This document shows, piece by piece, positions 8,758 to 15,456 of a DNA stretch of 25,760 bases; positions within the stretch are counted from its first letter, which is position 1, and every line of letters starts with the position of its first letter. The stretch comes from a virus. A model generated the notes under the pieces. It worked only from the letters and a program-made list of their open reading frames with translations. It was not told the DNA's origin and ran no database searches. Made by a program: the position numbers and the translations under genes. The stretch spans positions 1-25,760 of IMG/VR virus record IMGVR_UViG_3300037847_003628; one strand, 5' to 3'.

Positions 8758-10412
8758 TAATATCCTCCTTTGCCTCTTATCGTTGTGACGAGACTATGTT
8801 CATCTTGATGGTCTGGTCCATCACCTCCATTTGCCATACGAAGGTAACGAATCAAATCAAAAAAGTCTTTTAGTGCTTCATCATTTTTGCCATTGGAGTT
8901 GTAATTAATGATACTATCTATCAGGTTGCCACAATCCTCGTGGATGTAGCACATAGGTTTATTGGACTCATCTATCTCCACATTCGGATTGTAGCTGAAC
9001 CAGTCATCGAGTGAAGCAATACCAACTGCTTCCATTCTACCATCCGATGGGACAAAGTTCATCCCATAGTCATAGAATGATGTGAAGAGGTCATCATTAT
9101 CCTCATTCTGTCTAGCGAAGTAACGACTATCACCTATACGCTCGAATACTTCTATATCTAAGTCTTCTTCTATCTGCTTGAAGAGATTTACATATCCTTC
9201 AATATTGTATCCAATTTTTTTAGAAGCTGGACCATATCGCCACTTAGGTTCTCCGAATAGTGCCCATTCACCATATGTATTCCTGTCAGGGAATTCACTC
9301 CTAATATAGACCTCACCTTTAGCATTAACTCCAGCCCAAATTGCTGAATAGTTTCTAGCTCCTGCTGGGTCGACCACCTGATAACAAGTATATTCTCGTT
9401 TATTAGAAATATTTGGAAATCGCTTTCCATACTTATTGGGCTTATCAGATAATACATTGATTTCAGGGGTGAACATCGGAAGGAGTGATGTCATAGATTT
9501 GACAGGTACGCCATATGCTCTGACAAGTATTTCTTCCTCGTGTTTATTTTTTAGGTCTTTAGCTATTCTATCATACCCTCCAAATGGGTTTTCATCTGTA
9601 TGTAAATAGCATATAGATGCATCCATCTCTGGAGAGTATTGTTTTACAGGAACAGGCTTGTTTAAGAGCTCTGCATTCCTAGTCTCTAGGGTCTCTGCAC
9701 CTCGAAGGTAATCAGAGATAAATGGCGTATAGCCATCGATGGGTGTAAACCCTATCAGCAACTTAGAGTCTCTGGTAGCTAATCGGAATCTAAGAGTATT
9801 AACTAGGGTAGCATCCCCAAGATACTCATCAAGCCATGCACCTATATTGAGGTACTTGGGTTGCTTAAAGCCGAACTCGAAACCCTCAAGTATTGTCTGA
9901 TTGTTAGTAAATTGTGTATAAGTCTTAAAATCCACCCTAGTCTTGGTATCTGGGAAAATGAAGCTAGACCCTGTAAAGCCATTCTGCATAGAGTAATTAA
10001 TATATCCCTCTATGCCCTTAGTCTTCTTCTTGAACTCTTTGGGCATCATATCCCATATAGCAGACTGTTGAACCTTTACAGATGTATCAGCATTCTGACT
10101 GAAGCATACTATATGCCCATTTTCTGATTTGGTAACAGCCTCCATAACTATCTTAGCACAGCCAGTAGTTTTACCACTTCTATTACCACCGAGGGTTAGA
10201 CACTCATTATACTTAGATAGCCCATCTCGTATTCTATCCCAGCCATCTAAATCAAAGCCATGATATAGTGGATTCTCAATGCTATCTTCTATTCGCTTCT
10301 CATGAAGCCCATGCATCTCAGATAGAAGTTTAGGGTCATTCTTGAGTAAGAGTAATATATCCTCGTCAGAGGGGGTATCTAGGAATGGGTGCTGTGTAAA
10401 TACTATCTCCAT
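8757..10412 (-). CDS. terL: terminase large subunit
   Basis: This 551-residue protein would be the ATP-driven packaging motor and headful nuclease. The ATPase domain has Walker A GGNRSGKT (residues 75-82), a Walker B-like WLDE (193-196, with the acidic pair D195-E196) and a coupling motif LIGFTP (219-224). The RNase H-like nuclease domain has VVDPAG (346-351) as the first acidic strand and IGDSR (426-430) as the second. The length is typical. The ATG overlaps the upstream stop (TAATG), and a GAGGAG site formed by the acidic end of the previous gene lies just before it. The call is secure. Confidence 0.95.
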   Translation of the reverse strand: MEIVFTQHPFLDTPSDEDILLLLKNDPKLLSEMHGLHEKRIEDSIENPLYHGFDLDGWDRIRDGLSKYNECLTLGGNRSGKTTGCAKIVMEAVTKSENGHIVCFSQNADTSVKVQQSAIWDMMPKEFKKKTKGIEGYINYSMQNGFTGSSFIFPDTKTRVDFKTYTQFTNNQTILEGFEFGFKQPKYLNIGAWLDEYLGDATLVNTLRFRLATRDSKLLIGFTPIDGYTPFISDYLRGAETLETRNAELLNKPVPVKQYSPEMDASICYLHTDENPFGGYDRIAKDLKNKHEEEILVRAYGVPVKSMTSLLPMFTPEINVLSDKPNKYGKRFPNISNKREYTCYQVVDPAGARNYSAIWAGVNAKGEVYIRSEFPDRNTYGEWALFGEPKWRYGPASKKIGYNIEGYVNLFKQIEEDLDIEVFERIGDSRYFARQNEDNDDLFTSFYDYGMNFVPSDGRMEAVGIASLDDWFSYNPNVEIDESNKPMCYIHEDCGNLIDSIINYNSNGKNDEALKDFFDLIRYLRMANGGDGPDHQDEHSLVTTIRGKGGY

Positions 10413-10639
10413 TACTCCTCGTCTTCCTCCATCTCTATAACTAGCTCTATATCATCTTTGCTCATCTCCGATGAGGCTTCCTTGAAGAGCATCTTGCCTA
10501 TATAGTATTGTGAATAATCATACTCCAATATCTCCTCTTCATCTAAGACGACTACACCAAAATGCTCGAAATGCTCTGATAGTATAGAGCATACCTTCTT
10601 GAATGCATCTTTCTGGTGCTTATTGAATCTCTTCGCCAT
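10412..10639 (-). CDS. small acidic protein between terminase genes
   Basis: This 75-residue protein has a basic first 15 residues (MAKRFNKHQKDAFKK) and a strongly acidic C-terminus (MEEDEE). The centre, SILSEHFEHFGVVVLDEEE, looks like a helix and strand. It overlaps the upstream probable small terminase by 20 bases and the downstream large terminase at the stop/start. The codons of its acidic tail also supply the ribosome binding site for the large terminase, so translation of the two should be coupled. The function is unknown; an accessory role in packaging is suggested by position only. Confidence 0.55.
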   Translation of the reverse strand: MAKRFNKHQKDAFKKVCSILSEHFEHFGVVVLDEEEILEYDYSQYYIGKMLFKEASSEMSKDDIELVIEMEEDEE

Positions 10640-11171
10640 CTATTATCTCTGCTTCTTTGATTTGTTTAAGTCTAGCCTCTACTGCCTTCTTAGTCTCCAT
10701 ATAGTCATCCTGTGTATGCACCTTTCTCTCCTCTGATATAGAGGATACCTCTCCACGAGCTGTGAGAGCCTCTCTAGAGGCATTTGCCATAGCAATGGAC
10801 AAATCCTTCAAATCTCTGATAGAAGGCTCTATATCACCACTTTCTACTCGATTACGGATATTATCTACTAAGTCCTCTGATAGTGATGTCATATTAATGT
10901 AATTCTTAGCAGAGAGCTTACCACCAAGTTCACGGAACTTGTTCTTATAATCTGCATAGTCTACCAATGTATTTATAATAGTCTCTCTATCTATCTTATA
11001 CTTCTTGACCATCATAGTCTGGGATACGCCAGTAGAGAAAAGATATAGTATCTTAGCTACCTTATCAGGATTATACCTAGATAAAGACTTGATTCCTTCT
11101 ATTTCTTTCTTCTGGGCTATATCCTGTATAGCACTATTTATCTCTGAGCTTAATATTTCCTTAGTAGACAT
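10620..11171 (-). CDS. terS: probable terminase small subunit
   Basis: This protein probably recognises phage DNA and regulates the large terminase. Its N-terminal third contains a helix-turn-helix-like segment (KILYLFSTGVSQTMMVKKYK followed by IDRETIINTL). Long helices follow (ENLVDN-like SEDLVDNIRNRVESGD, then IRDLKDLSIAMANASREAL), as in small terminases that oligomerise through central helices, and the tail is acidic. It is the first gene of the late operon, two genes upstream of the large terminase. An ATG at 11171 preceded by GGAAAA gives 183 residues; a TTG at 11183 would add four (MENL) but would lie against the predicted promoter. Role is from order and fold, so moderately sure. Confidence 0.6.
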   Translation of the reverse strand: MSTKEILSSEINSAIQDIAQKKEIEGIKSLSRYNPDKVAKILYLFSTGVSQTMMVKKYKIDRETIINTLVDYADYKNKFRELGGKLSAKNYINMTSLSEDLVDNIRNRVESGDIEPSIRDLKDLSIAMANASREALTARGEVSSISEERKVHTQDDYMETKKAVEARLKQIKEAEIIDGEEIQ

Positions 11172-11186
11172 AAGATTTTCCAATAT

Positions 11187-11212
11187 GGTAAAACCTATAC
11201 CCTATGTATATA
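11187..11212. repeat. 26-bp direct repeat, copy A (late promoter)
   Basis: GGTAAAACCTATACCCTATG followed by TATATA matches 15874-15899 at 24 of 26 positions in the same orientation. Copy A sits in the predicted late promoter, just upstream of the small terminase start. Read on the plus strand it would encode VKPIPYV, the same residues as copy B, and one of the two differences is synonymous. Confidence 0.75.
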
Positions 11213-11220
11213 TATGTCAA
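11194..11220 (-). promoter_or_regulatory. putative late-operon promoter
   Basis: On the minus strand TTGACA (11220-11215) is followed after 15 bases by TATAGG (11199-11194). The predicted transcript start near 11187 lies about 16 bases before the ATG at 11171. The -35 is a consensus hexamer, but the spacer is shorter than the usual 17, so the promoter may be weak or need an activator. Confidence 0.45.
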
Positions 11221-11223
11221 TAA

Positions 11224-11550
11224 TAAAATGTATAGGTCTTTCTTTTTTGGAATATGAGTATTTAAGCCCTATCGGAGAGGATTTTTTTTAGAACCCACCT
11301 TATATATAACGATTTAAAAAGTAAAAAAAAAAAATAACCCCCTCCTCCCCTAGTGAGGAATAAAACTTAATTAGACATAATATTTATTATGCGATGCTAG
11401 AAAAATGCTAGAAAAAATGACATAGCCAGAAAAAAAATCGTCCCTTGAGTGAGTGTTTTTTTCGGCAAGCTCGATATCATTTCAGGGAGAGGAAAAGGGA
11501 GGGAAAATTTCCTTCTGTCCCTGACTCAGGAGCTCTTAAAATCATGACAT
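11224..11550. other. non-coding region between late operon and accessory island
   Basis: This is about 330 bases with no credible gene. It contains long A and T runs, a C-rich stretch at 11337-11350, and two direct copies of ATGCTAGA at 11394-11401 and 11405-11412, 11 bases apart (one helical turn). The same octamer forms a palindrome at 15360-15376. This is likely a regulatory spacer upstream of the late promoter. Confidence 0.5.
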
Positions 11551-11586
11551 AAAAAAAGCCCTCAGAATTGCTCCTGAAGGCTTTTT
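11551..11586 (-). terminator. intrinsic terminator of the 11596-11913 gene
   Basis: The two arms AAAAAGCCcTCAG and CTGAaGGCTTTTT pair over 12 of 13 positions around the loop AATTGCTC. On the minus strand the stem ends in a run of seven T, ten bases past the stop codon. The plus-strand arm also ends in T5, so it may work in both directions. It is nearly identical to the hairpin at 12218-12253. Confidence 0.8.
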
Positions 11587-11595
11587 AAGTTTTCC

Positions 11596-11913
11596 CTAAG
11601 CTCTATATCCGAATTTGCCTATTTCGCTTCCTGTAGCGTGTCTGAGAGCCTCCTCCAATGAATTGGAAATGTGCTCTGACTGCTCAGAATAAGGAGGAGT
11701 ATTTTCGAGCTCCTCCAATGTGGGAGAGTCGAGCCCTGAAGCTTCGAGAAACAAATCCTTTTTAAAGTTTCTGTTATCTCTTTTCAGGAAACTCAGGAGC
11801 TGAGTTTTGAAATAATCTCCGAAAATAATCTTCCCTTCGAGGGAGTTAAATTCGATTAGATTATCTCTGATAATTTCAGCTAATTCGTTATAGTGTTTTC
11901 TTGTTAGACTCAT
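11596..11913 (-). CDS. small conserved protein of the accessory island
   Basis: This 105-residue protein starts MSLTRKHYNELAEIIRDN, a pattern seen in many small uncharacterised phage and plasmid proteins, with amphipathic helices up to about residue 60. A Pro/Glu/Ser-rich segment follows (LEELENTPPYSEQSEHISNS), and the end is short and basic. The start at 11913 is preferred because GGAG lies nine bases before it; an ATG at 11928 would put that site inside the gene and has none of its own. Two terminators bracket it (at 12218 and 11551), so it probably has its own promoter. It contains TCAGGAG like the rest of the island. The function is unknown. Confidence 0.6.
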   Translation of the reverse strand: MSLTRKHYNELAEIIRDNLIEFNSLEGKIIFGDYFKTQLLSFLKRDNRNFKKDLFLEASGLDSPTLEELENTPPYSEQSEHISNSLEEALRHATGSEIGKFGYRA

Positions 11914-11945
11914 GATTTTTTTCTCCATTTTTTTGGTTATGTTTT

Positions 11946-11970
11946 TTCCTCCTGAGTCATTCAGGAGGAG
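11946..11970. other. hairpin with inverted TCAGGAG pair
   Basis: TCCTCCTGA (11947-11955) and TCAGGAGGA (11961-11969) form a perfect 9-bp stem around the loop GTCAT. On the minus strand an AGGAGG lies in the 3' arm, about 20 bases before ATG 11928, so the hairpin could mask a ribosome-binding-like sequence. No T run follows it on the minus strand; on the plus strand only scattered T follow. It is made of two inverted copies of the island's repeated word. Confidence 0.5.
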
Positions 11971-11983
11971 TTAAAATTTTATC

Positions 11984-12163
11984 TCATGAGCGAGGGAAAA
12001 CTGAGAAAGAACATAAGAGCATAATTACAGAAAAGTTTCTTTTGTCGATGCTAAAATCTCCTAGGAAAAAATGCTCTGTCCCTGACGCCTCAGGAGCGAA
12101 AATTTCATTACCAGCATAGATTGCTGCTTTTTGCCTTTTAAATATTTTATCTATTATATCCAT
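11984..12163 (-). CDS. doubtful small ORF
   Basis: An open frame from ATG 12163 encodes 59 residues (MDIIDKIFKRQKAAIYAGNE...), ending in a hydrophobic stretch (NFSVIMLLCSFSVF). A TTG at 12205 would extend it to 73. It lacks a clear ribosome binding site and begins just after the terminator of the MoxR-VWA operon, so it would need its own promoter; a TATAAT at about 12150-12160 (minus strand) lies inside the frame and more likely serves the next gene. The composition is protein-like, but the evidence is thin. It may be a decayed gene. Confidence 0.25.
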   Translation of the reverse strand: MDIIDKIFKRQKAAIYAGNEIFAPEASGTEHFFLGDFSIDKRNFSVIMLLCSFSVFPRS

Positions 12164-12217
12164 GCTCAGATACGCCTGAGGCAAGGCAATCGAATGTGAT
12201 GGCAATTCAAGGCAATT

Positions 12218-12253
12218 AAAAAGCCTTCAGATTTGCTCCTGAAGGCTCTTTAA
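12218..12253 (-). terminator. intrinsic terminator of the MoxR-VWA operon
   Basis: The arms AAAAAGCCTTCAG and CTGAAGGCTCTTT pair over 12 of 13 positions around the loop ATTTGCTC. On the minus strand the stem ends in TTTTTAATT, about 20 bases after the VWA stop codon. It is a near copy of the hairpin at 11551-11586, including the loop and the TCAGGAG word. Confidence 0.8.
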
Positions 12254-12274
12254 TGATTTATATGATAGATTGTA

Positions 12275-13843
12275 TCAGATTGCTTTCATGCAATGCTCTA
12301 GGATTCTTTTTGAGACGCTGAGAGCATTCGTATCTATAAATGATTTAGTAAAGTAAGAGTTGCATGCATCTCTCATTCGAGAAACTTCTGATTCCTCGCA
12401 AATGCATGAGGCTATCAGATTAATTCCTCTCTTACGATAGGAAGGCTCATCAGGAATATTGCCCGTAAGATATCCATCAGTAAAGAGTAAGCATAAATCT
12501 TGCTTGGCTAAAATAGCATCATACTTCTTTAGATTATTATCGAAATTTTCATGTCCTCCACATGGCTCGATATTCATCAAATCATTGAGTGGTCTATTCG
12601 TGATATCATAATTAAATTGATTAAATGATATCACCATCCTGAGCTCGATAATCTTATTATCATGGAGCATTTTAAGAGCTCCTAAAAACTCTTTTCCTCC
12701 ATAATGCTTAATCACATTATTCATTGATGTGCTGAAATCGACTAAGCAAAAAACTTTCAATTTATTGCCTGACTTCCTGAAGCTCCTGAATGAGTTTTCT
12801 AATCGAGCAATAGCATTCTTAATATACAATCTATTGCCTGATGTGGAGATAGCATTCCGATGGCTATAAGCTCTCTTACAGATGGGTCTGAGAGCATTAT
12901 AGATTCGTCTCATGAGATTGGTTTCTCCTTCTGTAGCATCATAGCCTCGATTAAGGATATCCTCATAATCTATGTTATCAGTAATCCCTTTATCAGAGCC
13001 TCCTTTGCCTATTCCTGATTTACCATTTATAGGACAATCTTTTCCATCGAGTTTTGTCTCTCTCTCATATACTTCAGGAATCTCGATTCCAAAAGTTTTA
13101 ACCCATCTCATGACTATCTGACATAGTTGCCATGAGTCAGGAGCATTGCATGCATCCCTATAATAATTTGCTATAGCGACAGTTGCATTAAGCTCCTTCA
13201 TATGTCCTTTAGTGTTATAATAAATGACTCTTTTCTTTAGTGTATTTTTATAACTTAATTCAGGTAAGAATCTAGTCAGGTTATTTGATTTTGATGAGCT
13301 CATTCGAGTCATGGATTCCTTAGCCTTCAGAACATAAAATGCTCCTGATGCTATATCAGTTTTTTCATCAATATCGAAATATCTATTCCAAAAGAATTTT
13401 TTATAGATAGGAAAATCCTGAAGGAATTTAAATTCGATTCTAGCATCCTCGAAAAGATTGAATAGAGCAAAAGGAATTCTTTCATCCTCCAATATATTTA
13501 CAATGCTTTCGAGGTCTCTTTTTGTATAAAGAGCATGACATAACTCATGACGATACACCTCCTTAAAAAAGTTTGTGGAGTGTGCTAATGAGTTTCTAGT
13601 TTTAACATTAGTTGCCTTATGAATCTTTTCTGAGGATGTGATAATGTGCTGATTATTTCCCTTATCAAATCTCCAATGAAAAGAGTCAGAATTAGAATCA
13701 TGCTCGAATTTAATTCGCTCTCCTTTTATTGGAGATGCTGAATCTGAGAGAAGGAATCTTGCGACTCCTGAGATGGATTTATTTCTGTAAAAAATCCTTC
13801 TGTAAGCATTGCGAATGCATCGTGAAATATCTGTAATTTTCAT
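12275..13843 (-). CDS. VWA-domain protein with zincin-like HELCH motif, CobT-like
   Basis: This 522-residue protein probably acts with the MoxR ATPase encoded upstream. The N-terminal half has HELCH (residues 99-103), matching the HExxH metallopeptidase motif, followed by NILEDERI (116-122) and LFEDARIE (130-137), like the E-D-x-R-(I/V)-E signature of CobT-type proteins and a possible third zinc ligand. A Gly/Lys-rich linker lies near 273-286. The C-terminal VWA domain has the metal-binding motif DFSTS (369-373), GGHENFDNNL (429-438, compare ENxDG in CobT) and FTDG (454-457). The usual MIDAS Thr is not obvious. GGAAG lies 11 bases before the ATG. MoxR-VWA pairs assemble, insert metal into or remodel protein complexes; the target here is unknown. 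Domains are seen; protease activity is inferred. Confidence 0.8.
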   Translation of the reverse strand: MKITDISRCIRNAYRRIFYRNKSISGVARFLLSDSASPIKGERIKFEHDSNSDSFHWRFDKGNNQHIITSSEKIHKATNVKTRNSLAHSTNFFKEVYRHELCHALYTKRDLESIVNILEDERIPFALFNLFEDARIEFKFLQDFPIYKKFFWNRYFDIDEKTDIASGAFYVLKAKESMTRMSSSKSNNLTRFLPELSYKNTLKKRVIYYNTKGHMKELNATVAIANYYRDACNAPDSWQLCQIVMRWVKTFGIEIPEVYERETKLDGKDCPINGKSGIGKGGSDKGITDNIDYEDILNRGYDATEGETNLMRRIYNALRPICKRAYSHRNAISTSGNRLYIKNAIARLENSFRSFRKSGNKLKVFCLVDFSTSMNNVIKHYGGKEFLGALKMLHDNKIIELRMVISFNQFNYDITNRPLNDLMNIEPCGGHENFDNNLKKYDAILAKQDLCLLFTDGYLTGNIPDEPSYRKRGINLIASCICEESEVSRMRDACNSYFTKSFIDTNALSVSKRILEHCMKAI

Positions 13844-13872
13844 AATTTTTTTTACTTCCAGCGTATGATTTT

Positions 13873-15255
13873 TTAACTTCCAGCTTTTTCAAATGTGGAT
13901 GTATACACATCGTTAATAACTGTCTTTAATTCGTCTCTAGACTCCTTTAAAGAATCTCCTGAATCAGGATTCCAATTTGAACAATCGTCAAAACATGAGA
14001 GAGCTAAATCCTCCCATAAATCTTTATAAGTTTCTCCTGACATAGATTCGAGAGAAGCCTTCAGGTTTCTGAAATCTATAGGGAATTGAATAGAGCCCTC
14101 GATTGCTAACTTGCGAGTTTCATCCATGAGTTTAGCAAAGCCTGCAATGAAATTACCCATACCGAATTCCTTTTCAGAATCAGAATAATCCTTGATGCTA
14201 TAACCTGATAGAATTGCCTTTGCCGTATCCATGCAAAAGCCAAGATTGAAATCAAATCTTAGCTTTCTGAATCGACTCCAAAAAGCTTGAATAGGAATCT
14301 CCTGAGTAAGATTTGCTCCTGAGATTATGTGCAAGTTTTTGGATGGAGATTCTATCACTTCAAGACTCCCATTATTATTTTTTCTAGTGGTTAATCTATA
14401 GAATTTTTCCCTGACTCCATTAACAGTTTTTTCAACTCCATTCAGGAAGGTTAAAAGGAAAGCCTGAGTGTTTTCATTCCATCTCAAAATTTCATCAAGA
14501 AATAGTAAGACAGATTTTCCTTCTGAGGCTTCTCTCATTGCCTGAGTTAAAACTCCATCGACATTAACAAATCCTGAGCCTGAGGAATCAGGAATGATAT
14601 TTCCGATTAGAGTGGTAATCTCATCAATATCACTAGAGCAATTATGCTCTAAGAAACTATCATAGGTATCTCCTAAGATTCTTACTGAGTGAGATTTTCC
14701 AAATGATGGAGGAGATAATAACATGACATTAGTATTAGCCTCCTGAGATGGAGTATAATACTTAGTTATAGCATTTAGCATTTTATTATTTCCTGAAGCC
14801 TTAGCCTGAATAACTTTAATGTTTTTCTTAACTTCAGGAGTCTTTAATGCATCCCTGAGAGTGTTAATCTCATCGTCAATATGACAGATGCTAGAAGCCA
14901 TTGCATCAATGCTTTTATCTAATTTATTTTCAATATAACTCTTAAAATTATCGAGCTCCTTATTGGAGATTGATGAGTTATTTTGATTGGATGCTATAGC
15001 ATTGCTTAACGCTGACAATGCATCCTGAATTGATTGATTAGACTCCTGAGTTTCTGACTCATAAGTTTCTAATTCATTAGCTGACTCATAGTTTTCCTGA
15101 GCCTCCTGAATGATTGTATCACATTCATTTGAGTTTAGCATATTTGTATCACTAGCCTTAATTGATTCGACTAAGCAATTAGAGATTAGCTCTCTAATGA
15201 TTTTTCTTTTTTCGATAACTGAGAGCTCCTCAGTATTTATATCTTTTGGATTCAT
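13873..15255 (-). CDS. MoxR-type AAA+ ATPase, CobS-like
   Basis: This 460-residue protein has a long acidic, Ser/Asn/Glu-rich helical N-terminus (residues 1-145, likely coiled coil) and a AAA+ domain. Visible motifs are Walker A SPPSFGKS (181-188; the usual first Gly is Ser), Walker B LFLDEI (251-256), sensor 1 HIISGAN (309-315) and a probable arginine finger in FWSRFRK (325-331). GSGFVNVDGVL (226-236) fits the pore or insert region of MoxR/CobS proteins. Phage homologues are often named CobS, but cobalt chelation is not implied. The VWA partner follows after 29 bases in the same operon. No clear ribosome binding site precedes the ATG. The island's word TCAGGAG occurs repeatedly inside the gene in more than one frame. 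Confidence 0.85.
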   Translation of the reverse strand: MNPKDINTEELSVIEKRKIIRELISNCLVESIKASDTNMLNSNECDTIIQEAQENYESANELETYESETQESNQSIQDALSALSNAIASNQNNSSISNKELDNFKSYIENKLDKSIDAMASSICHIDDEINTLRDALKTPEVKKNIKVIQAKASGNNKMLNAITKYYTPSQEANTNVMLLSPPSFGKSHSVRILGDTYDSFLEHNCSSDIDEITTLIGNIIPDSSGSGFVNVDGVLTQAMREASEGKSVLLFLDEILRWNENTQAFLLTFLNGVEKTVNGVREKFYRLTTRKNNNGSLEVIESPSKNLHIISGANLTQEIPIQAFWSRFRKLRFDFNLGFCMDTAKAILSGYSIKDYSDSEKEFGMGNFIAGFAKLMDETRKLAIEGSIQFPIDFRNLKASLESMSGETYKDLWEDLALSCFDDCSNWNPDSGDSLKESRDELKTVINDVYTSTFEKAGS

Positions 15256-15282
15256 AATTTTTGATTTTTGGATTAATAATTT

Positions 15283-15300
15283 TCATGCAACATTGCATGA
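15283..15300. promoter_or_regulatory. 18-bp palindrome upstream of the MoxR gene
   Basis: TCATGCAA-CA-TTGCATGA is a perfect inverted repeat with 8-base arms and a 2-base centre. It lies 28-45 bases upstream of the MoxR start and just downstream of its putative promoter, a typical place for a dimeric repressor operator. Confidence 0.5.
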
Positions 15301-15309
15301 GTCAGATAA

Positions 15310-15336
15310 AAAATATTAATTTCAGGATTCTGACAA
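15310..15336 (-). promoter_or_regulatory. possible promoter of the MoxR-VWA operon
   Basis: On the minus strand TTGTCA (15336-15331) is followed after 15 bases by TATTTT (15315-15310). The match is modest and the region is AT-rich, so this is a candidate only. It would give a leader of roughly 50 bases containing the 15283-15300 palindrome. Confidence 0.3.
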
Positions 15337-15359
15337 GATTATTTTACTCAGTTTTTCTC

Positions 15360-15376
15360 ATGCTAGATTCTAGCAT
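15360..15376. promoter_or_regulatory. 17-bp palindrome ATGCTAGA-T-TCTAGCAT
   Basis: This is a perfect inverted repeat with 8-base arms and a 1-base centre, between the divergent MoxR and replication operons. Its half-site is repeated in tandem at 11394-11412 at the far end of the island. It is probably a binding site for a dimeric regulator. Confidence 0.45.
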
Positions 15377-15398
15377 CCTTCTGGTAATAAAAAAAAAC

Positions 15399-15427
15399 TT
15401 GACTATTTTTTTTTAAAAAAATAAAAT
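15399..15427 (+). promoter_or_regulatory. putative early promoter
   Basis: TTGACT (15399-15404), a 17-base A/T-rich spacer and TAAAAT (15422-15427) match a sigma70-type promoter well. A transcript would start near 15434, inside the inverted repeat at 15423-15456, and then run through the iteron-like repeats into the replication operon with a leader of about 140 bases. Confidence 0.5.
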
Positions 15428-15456
15428 CCATGTGTTCCCTCCAACACATGGATTTT
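15423..15456. terminator. perfect 14-bp inverted repeat, terminator or operator
   Basis: AAAATCCATGTGTT and AACACATGGATTTT pair perfectly around CCCTCC. On the minus strand the stem runs into ATTTTTTT, so it could stop leftward transcripts before the MoxR operon. It also overlaps the -10 and start of the plus-strand promoter, so it could equally be an operator for a dimeric repressor. The sequence alone does not decide between these. Confidence 0.6.

Follow-up and report, generated by a model that had tools for sequence, protein, structure and literature searches.

Chi sites are very short over-represented words, such as the 5-bp site of Bacillus subtilis. The DNA uptake sequence of the Neisseriaceae is about 12 bp long, and genomic islands are known to keep the uptake-sequence dialect of their former host (PMC7371117). 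A pair of MoxR and vWA proteins, the latter with an N-terminal metallopeptidase, has been described in jumbo phages, with a proposed role in virion assembly (PMC7824862). Here we describe a block of about 4 kb in a marine phage that holds a putative gene pair of this type and is crowded with the word TCAGGAG (CTCCTGA on the other strand). The window analysed comprises the first 25,760 bases of the 38,946-base virus record IMGVR_UViG_3300037847_003628, hereafter G000. It was compared with the homologous cassettes of L009 and L010 and with a cassette fragment of L015, making three cassettes and one fragment with G000 included, the only ones found. L009 is 95/93% identical to G000. The L010 cassette proteins share only 59-61% amino acid identity with those of G000 while the direct neighbour genes share 79-89%, so that the cassette is more diverged than its surroundings. 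Among named phages, C75C1 is a relative of G000 (terminase identity of 74%).

The G000 cassette resembles each of these systems in part. As in the Neisseriaceae islands, a short word is dense inside an apparently acquired block and sparse around it, pointing to another gene pool; the islands, however, have a known 12-bp word and identified donors, whereas in G000 the word measures 5-6 bp, no donor was found, and the whole dinucleotide signature appears foreign. Like a Chi site, the word is very short and enriched in both coding and non-coding DNA, but it is limited to 4 kb of the phage and has no link to a recombination enzyme or host. With phage morons and cargo cassettes the block shares a variable slot, differing cargo in relatives, its own terminators and a deviating composition; it differs from them in that a homologue of the cassette only about 60% identical still deviates. 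We propose that the dialect of the cassette is that of another gene pool and that its commonest word is still being retained to some degree, and assign this reading a probability of roughly 0.55.

The initial annotation had listed 19 copies of TCAGGAG/CTCCTGA between positions 11526 and 15109 and four copies outside this island (4375, 4780, 6680 and 7812). Every start proved exact. The four outer copies all lie in the left arm, with none in the right arm, and the other 13 kb of the record add none to the 23 of the window. Dinucleotide shuffles of the window gave a mean of 3.34 copies (standard deviation 2.07), and none of the 100 shuffles reached 23. A Markov count, which the initial annotation had put forward as a check, was run on the island (11.4-15.3 kb) with models fitted to the block itself. 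Orders 0, 1, 2 and 3 predict 0.26, 0.79, 2.47 and 10.4 copies, respectively; the order-3 model already includes most of TCAGGAG through its own 4-mers, and orders 1 and 2 fall far below the observed 19. The longer word CTCAGGAG has nine copies within the cassette and none outside. Codon choice alone is insufficient as well, in agreement with the initial annotation: the three long open reading frames (ORFs) contain 13 copies, compared with 2.9 (standard deviation 1.5) under synonymous codon shuffling, where 0 of 2000 shuffles reached 13. When 734 windows of 3.6 kb (94 loci) were surveyed, 23 exhibited some 7-mer with an order-1 score of at least 20; the high-scoring windows inspected correspond to one tandem-repeat gene and to palindromic words of related phages. 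A 7-mer excess of such strength is rare, yet not unique to G000 within its phage group. The unusual aspect of TCAGGAG is its passage through coding sequence in every frame.

The actual repeated unit is TCAGG(A), in either orientation and any frame. The core TCAGG, correctly reported as enriched in the initial annotation, occurs 50 times in the 3.9 kb of the cassette against 7.8 (order 1) or 13.0 (order 2) expected, a density of 12.8/kb compared with 2.0/kb in the rest. An A follows in 33 of the 50 sites and a T or C precedes in 36, no other base being constant. Relative to the cassette genes, 34 sites are sense and 16 antisense. Coding copies number 40, against 14.5 in synonymous shuffles (0/2000). 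Ser-Gly pairs of the cassette genes are written TCA-GGN in 13 of 13 cases and Pro-Glu/Asp pairs CCT-GAN in 7 of 7; CAG is preceded by T in 88/110 cases, compared with 205/662 in the comparison backbone. Close inverted pairs (CCTGA-N1..5-TCAGG) are found five times with 1.1 expected (P = 0.004), all five being present in L009, and the reverse arrangement does not occur in the cassette. Neither helical phasing nor regular spacing of the sites was convincing, the spacing being irregular. The earlier statement that the word appears in different frames, in both orientations and in non-coding DNA stands, except that part of this "non-coding" DNA (11984-12163) is probably coding. The excess lies at the DNA level; protein sequence, codon choice and base composition do not suffice to produce it.

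The whole cassette shows a strand-symmetric dialect that it shares with the diverged L010 cassette; in G000 this dialect peaks in TCAGG(A). The relative abundance (rho) of AC/GT is 0.48 in the cassette against 0.82 in the rest (0.54/0.41 on the coding strand), and that of GA/TC is 1.41 against 1.14. The cassette avoids AC/GT, GAAC/GTTC and CCAG/CTGG and prefers TCAG, GGAG and AGGA. An order-3 model trained on the L009 cassette delimits a single maximal segment in G000 with a score of 267.9 (next best 8.8), and masking TCAGG leaves the segment unchanged (score 154.3). Applied to L010, the same model returns a segment at 8833-12552 (score 109.7, next 12.1), and a model trained on L010 recovers 11529-15373 in G000. 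With protein and codon usage removed, 4-mer preferences correlate at 0.88 between cassettes and at 0.45-0.48 with L010; correlations of the cassettes with their own backbones range from -0.15 to 0.20, and those of the backbones with each other are mostly 0.31-0.58. When only 4-mers altered between G000 and L010 are considered, genes of the cassette are still less backbone-like (mean score about +0.01, against -0.03 to -0.05 in backbone genes), and AC/GT amounts to 0.064-0.071 compared with 0.084-0.114. Since the dialect is common to cassettes about 60% identical and extends to changed 4-mers, it has been preserved, or imported anew, over a long period. Similar genes of two marine T4-like phages show neither AC poverty (rho of 1.06 and 0.98) nor a TCAGG excess (1.6-1.9 per kb). 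Gene function therefore does not require the dialect, and we rejected the idea that the function of a MoxR-VWA pair demands the word. The initial annotation had also suggested that the island came from a genome with such a word. The foreign look of the block against the backbone agrees with this suggestion.

The TCAGG/TCAGGAG excess is present in L009 and in the L015 fragment. The L010 cassette contains 14 TCAGG in about 4 kb and no excess of TCAGGAG, and most of the G000 TCAGG sites are other sequences there. The TCAGG peak is a lineage feature added to the shared dialect. In homologous islands, which the initial annotation had named as a test of its claim, the excess is accordingly seen in the closest members and missing in the distant one.

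Conservation was tested on a single phage pair, G000 and L009. In the cassette alignment TCAGG is intact at 44 of 50 sites, against 30.5 expected, while in the backbone control the figures are 17 of 25 and 15.8. In over-conservation TCAGG ranks top of 134 five-mers and TCAGGA top of 119 six-mers. Low general mutability of TCAGG was rejected, the backbone copies not being over-conserved. A test restricted to synonymous change (third positions, unchanged amino acids, matched codons) gave 53/59 for TCAGG against 47.2 (P = 0.03) and 47/51 for TCAGGA against 40.7 (P = 0.0099), with no effect in the backbone; protein conservation explains part of the retention, and the synonymous-only signal is weaker. 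Six copies fall outside the three long ORFs and exhibit 0/42 substitutions, compared with 21% in their surroundings, although several of them belong to terminators, to the hairpin with a Shine-Dalgarno sequence or to the probable small ORF. Fourfold-site divergence between the two phages is 0.20 in the cassette and 0.15-0.23 in several neighbouring genes, and the retention therefore occurred while the cassette resided in the phage. These alignments moderately support the idea of weak selection or exchange that is still going on.

According to the reading that we prefer, the cassette would have evolved in, or would still recombine with, a gene pool having an AC/GT-poor dialect. TCAGG(A/G) would be the commonest word of this dialect in the G000 lineage, and TCAGGAG would for this reason accumulate at Ser-Gly, Gln-Glu, Pro-Glu and Leu/Phe-Arg codon pairs and in hairpins. 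We directly observe the dialect with its borders, its occurrence in a diverged homologue of the cassette, and retention of TCAGG above expectation. From these we infer a gene pool outside the phage, and retention through weak selection or continuing exchange. Several results weigh against the proposal. No donor was found, two genome scans, plasmids and named phages yielding no relative, and alignment searches of viral contigs returned the same two loci only. As the fourfold divergence equals that of several neighbouring genes, the cassette has been resident in the lineage equally long; a passive foreign signature should then decay, yet TCAGG is retained. Finally, what G000 and L010 share of the dialect does not include the TCAGG peak.

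The main rival is that TCAGG(A) is a selected cis-acting site: a protein of the host or the phage would bind it and affect the cassette transcription unit, for example through silencing, anti-silencing or regulation of the cargo. This is what the top rank of TCAGG and TCAGGA among over-conserved words, the synonymous-only excess confined to the cassette, the unsubstituted outer copies and the one-way inverted pairs would lead one to expect. An operator with 50 sites, mostly within coding sequence, would nevertheless be unusual; the sites have no flanking consensus, their spacing is irregular, and the inverted pairs have variable spacers. Several of the six outer copies were perhaps kept for reasons of terminator, Shine-Dalgarno hairpin or small ORF, the two lineages compared yield no more than a modest synonymous effect, and L010 has the same genes in the same slot without the excess. 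We regard a cis-acting site as possible, though improbable. A related version, in which TCAGG(A) would be an actively maintained cassette-specific recognition word, running through coding and non-coding DNA, marking the block for a sequence-reading factor and replaced by other words between lineages (GGGTACCC and GGGTGACCC in the slot region of relatives), appears more doubtful.

Less likely again is a genome-wide word of a host, whether uptake sequence or Chi-like, that the cassette would have acquired while in that host genome. The islands with a former host's dialect (PMC7371117) offer a precedent, and both orientations, inverted pairs and hairpins would fit. The initial annotation had noted this resemblance; our results do not support an identity of the word as an uptake or Chi sequence. 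Around the TCAGG sites we found no conserved motif of about 12 bp as in uptake sequences, only 5 bp being constant and the flanks varying (5-6 bp of consensus at most). Over-representation across the replicating genome with an orientation bias, as for Chi, was not found either, the excess being confined to the cassette, where 34 sites are sense and 16 antisense. Outside the cassette the phage has TCAGG at the expected level, with 25 copies over the stretch that comprises replication, terminase and their neighbourhood; the L010 island shows no excess, and no host was found. It is the missing longer consensus, together with the lack of enrichment elsewhere in the phage, that weakens the reading. 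Word avoidance (of GATC, GGCC, GCGG and others, and of further words in the cassette) would account for the excess if CAG were left with TCAGG as its principal allowed context; we consider this very unlikely. Seven 4-mers are indeed absent from the whole 38.9 kb, CAG follows T in most cassette cases, and GCGG is forbidden in G000 while some Ser-Gly pairs of L010 are written AGCGGA or TCGGGT; however, the backbone lacks the same words too and has only 2.0 TCAGG per kb, and avoidance alone predicts no above-expectation retention. The chance that ordinary codon or amino acid usage is responsible is negligible. Ser-Gly and Gln-Glu pairs and the codons TCA, CAG and GGA are frequent in the cassette, but shuffles that keep protein and codon counts refute a codon or protein bias (2.9 of 13 TCAGGAG and 14.5 of 40 TCAGG, 0/2000), and the word is also found antisense and outside long ORFs.

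Table 1. Features of the G000 cassette and copies of TCAGGAG within it (window positions)
Feature	Position	Strand	Basis or remark
Cassette with own oligonucleotide dialect	11356-15454		Order-3 model trained on L009 cassette
MoxR-type AAA+ ATPase, 460 aa; PPSFGKSH Walker A-like, LLFLDE Walker B-like	13873-15255	-	AAA_5, E = 4.6e-5
522-aa protein; HExxH (residue 99), VWA MIDAS-like DFSTS (369), TDG (455)	12275-13843	-	phrog_459 'peptidase', E = 7.8e-5
Probable 59-aa ORF (MDIIDKIFKRQ...)	11984-12163	-	Counterpart in L009
110-aa ORF, function unassigned	11596-11928	-	Conserved in L009, L015, L010
Terminator hairpin, one TCAGGAG on one arm	12212-12258	-	-21.5 kcal/mol, z = -6.8
Terminator hairpin, one TCAGGAG on one arm, kept in three phages	11548-11596	-	-20.1 kcal/mol, z = -4.7
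Hairpin formed by inverted TCAGGAG pair (11949/11961)	11936-11975	-	-15.4 kcal/mol, z = -5.6
TCAGGAG	11526-11532, 11793-11799, 11961-11967, 12090-12096, 13137-13143, 14834-14840	+	
TCAGGAG	11571-11577, 11949-11955, 12236-12242, 12783-12789, 13342-13348, 13765-13771, 13956-13962	-	
TCAGGAG	14034-14040, 14299-14305, 14316-14322, 14740-14746, 15043-15049, 15103-15109	-	

The features of the cassette are listed in Table 1. It is located between the replication and terminase modules, in a slot whose content varies among relatives: it is occupied by genes for an amidoligase and a gamma-glutamyl cyclotransferase in C75C1, L022 and L023, and by small ORFs in L036 and L018. With cargo replaced in relatives, a deviating composition and its own terminators, the block is a moron-like candidate cargo cassette. 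As judged from motifs, the HExxH and VWA MIDAS motifs in a single protein adjoining an AAA+ gene characterize a putative peptidase-VWA plus MoxR pair. Marine T4-like and jumbo phages have the same arrangement in their peptidase-VWA and MoxR/CobS pairs (phrog_459, CobS neighbours), with an N-terminal HExxH, then VWA, and an adjoining AAA+ gene; here, by contrast, the pair is in a phage of about 39 kb and has its own compositional dialect. Residues 92-158 of the 522-aa protein match a peptidase of Pelagibacter phage HTVC008M (hhalign, E-value = 4e-8) that adjoins CobS in that phage. The G000 AAA+ protein gave no significant match to HTVC008M CobS. The predicted structure of the VWA protein had a predicted local distance difference test score (pLDDT) of 42 and was not used.

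The initial annotation had placed the word in terminator hairpins. The two strong terminators do carry one copy each, the full word being on one arm only, while the perfect inverted pair forms a hairpin that is not a terminator. This hairpin includes the AGGAGG of the 110-aa ORF, with the word pair identical in G000, L009 and L015, and may regulate translation. Comparison with Rfam gave nothing near the gathering score, and no clear candidate for a minus-strand promoter was found upstream of 15255. A longer terminator or dyad element elsewhere was rejected, the pattern scans matching the G000 phage group and unrelated contigs at ordinary TCAGG density; L098, an unrelated GC-rich viral contig matched by the terminator pattern, has 6.6 TCAGG/kb. 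Two peptides that resemble each other, APEASGTE and APESGTE, are encoded at 11984-12163 and 11500-11540 and are conserved in relatives; these stretches would represent a small unannotated ORF and perhaps the remnant of a second.

Other word patterns were noted in this phage group. In the window backbone GATGCTA/TAGCATC occurs about 30 times where an order-1 model predicts 5.7, and copies lie close to both cassette borders as well (about 11396 and 15365). GATC, GGCC, GCGC, CGCG, CCGG, ACGT and CCGC are all absent from the 38.9-kb record, where about 395 GATC are expected on both strands. Relatives either lack GATC or have about 2-5 copies of it per kb; this on/off distribution resembles an avoidance of restriction. 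Repeated palindromic words occur in the slot and early region of relatives (L023:215-3607, L029:764-8916, L012:8824-23061, L022:182-4216), namely GGGGTACCCC (15, 22 and 9 GGTACC sites) or GGGTGACCC/GGGTCACCC (about 14); they lie mostly outside long ORFs with A-runs alongside and are almost absent from structural genes. A TCAGG-rich zone at about 27.5-34.5 kb of G000 was rejected as a second site, as it consists of DSDGDGVGDN tandem repeats in which other words dominate and TCAGGAG is missing. This part of the record, beyond the window (about 27.4-34.8 kb; L014:7914-15320), encodes an Asp/Gly-rich protein of 2468 aa with tens of DSDGDGVGDN-type calcium-binding-like repeats, which account for its local GA and TCAGG richness.

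Foreign genes in a phage are expected to drift towards the phage composition, yet this cassette keeps its own dialect at about 60% protein identity. Either cargo cassettes constitute a gene pool with its own dialect on which phages draw repeatedly, or something reads the cassette DNA. If the gene-pool reading is true, composition would provide a route to tracing the origin of phage cargo.

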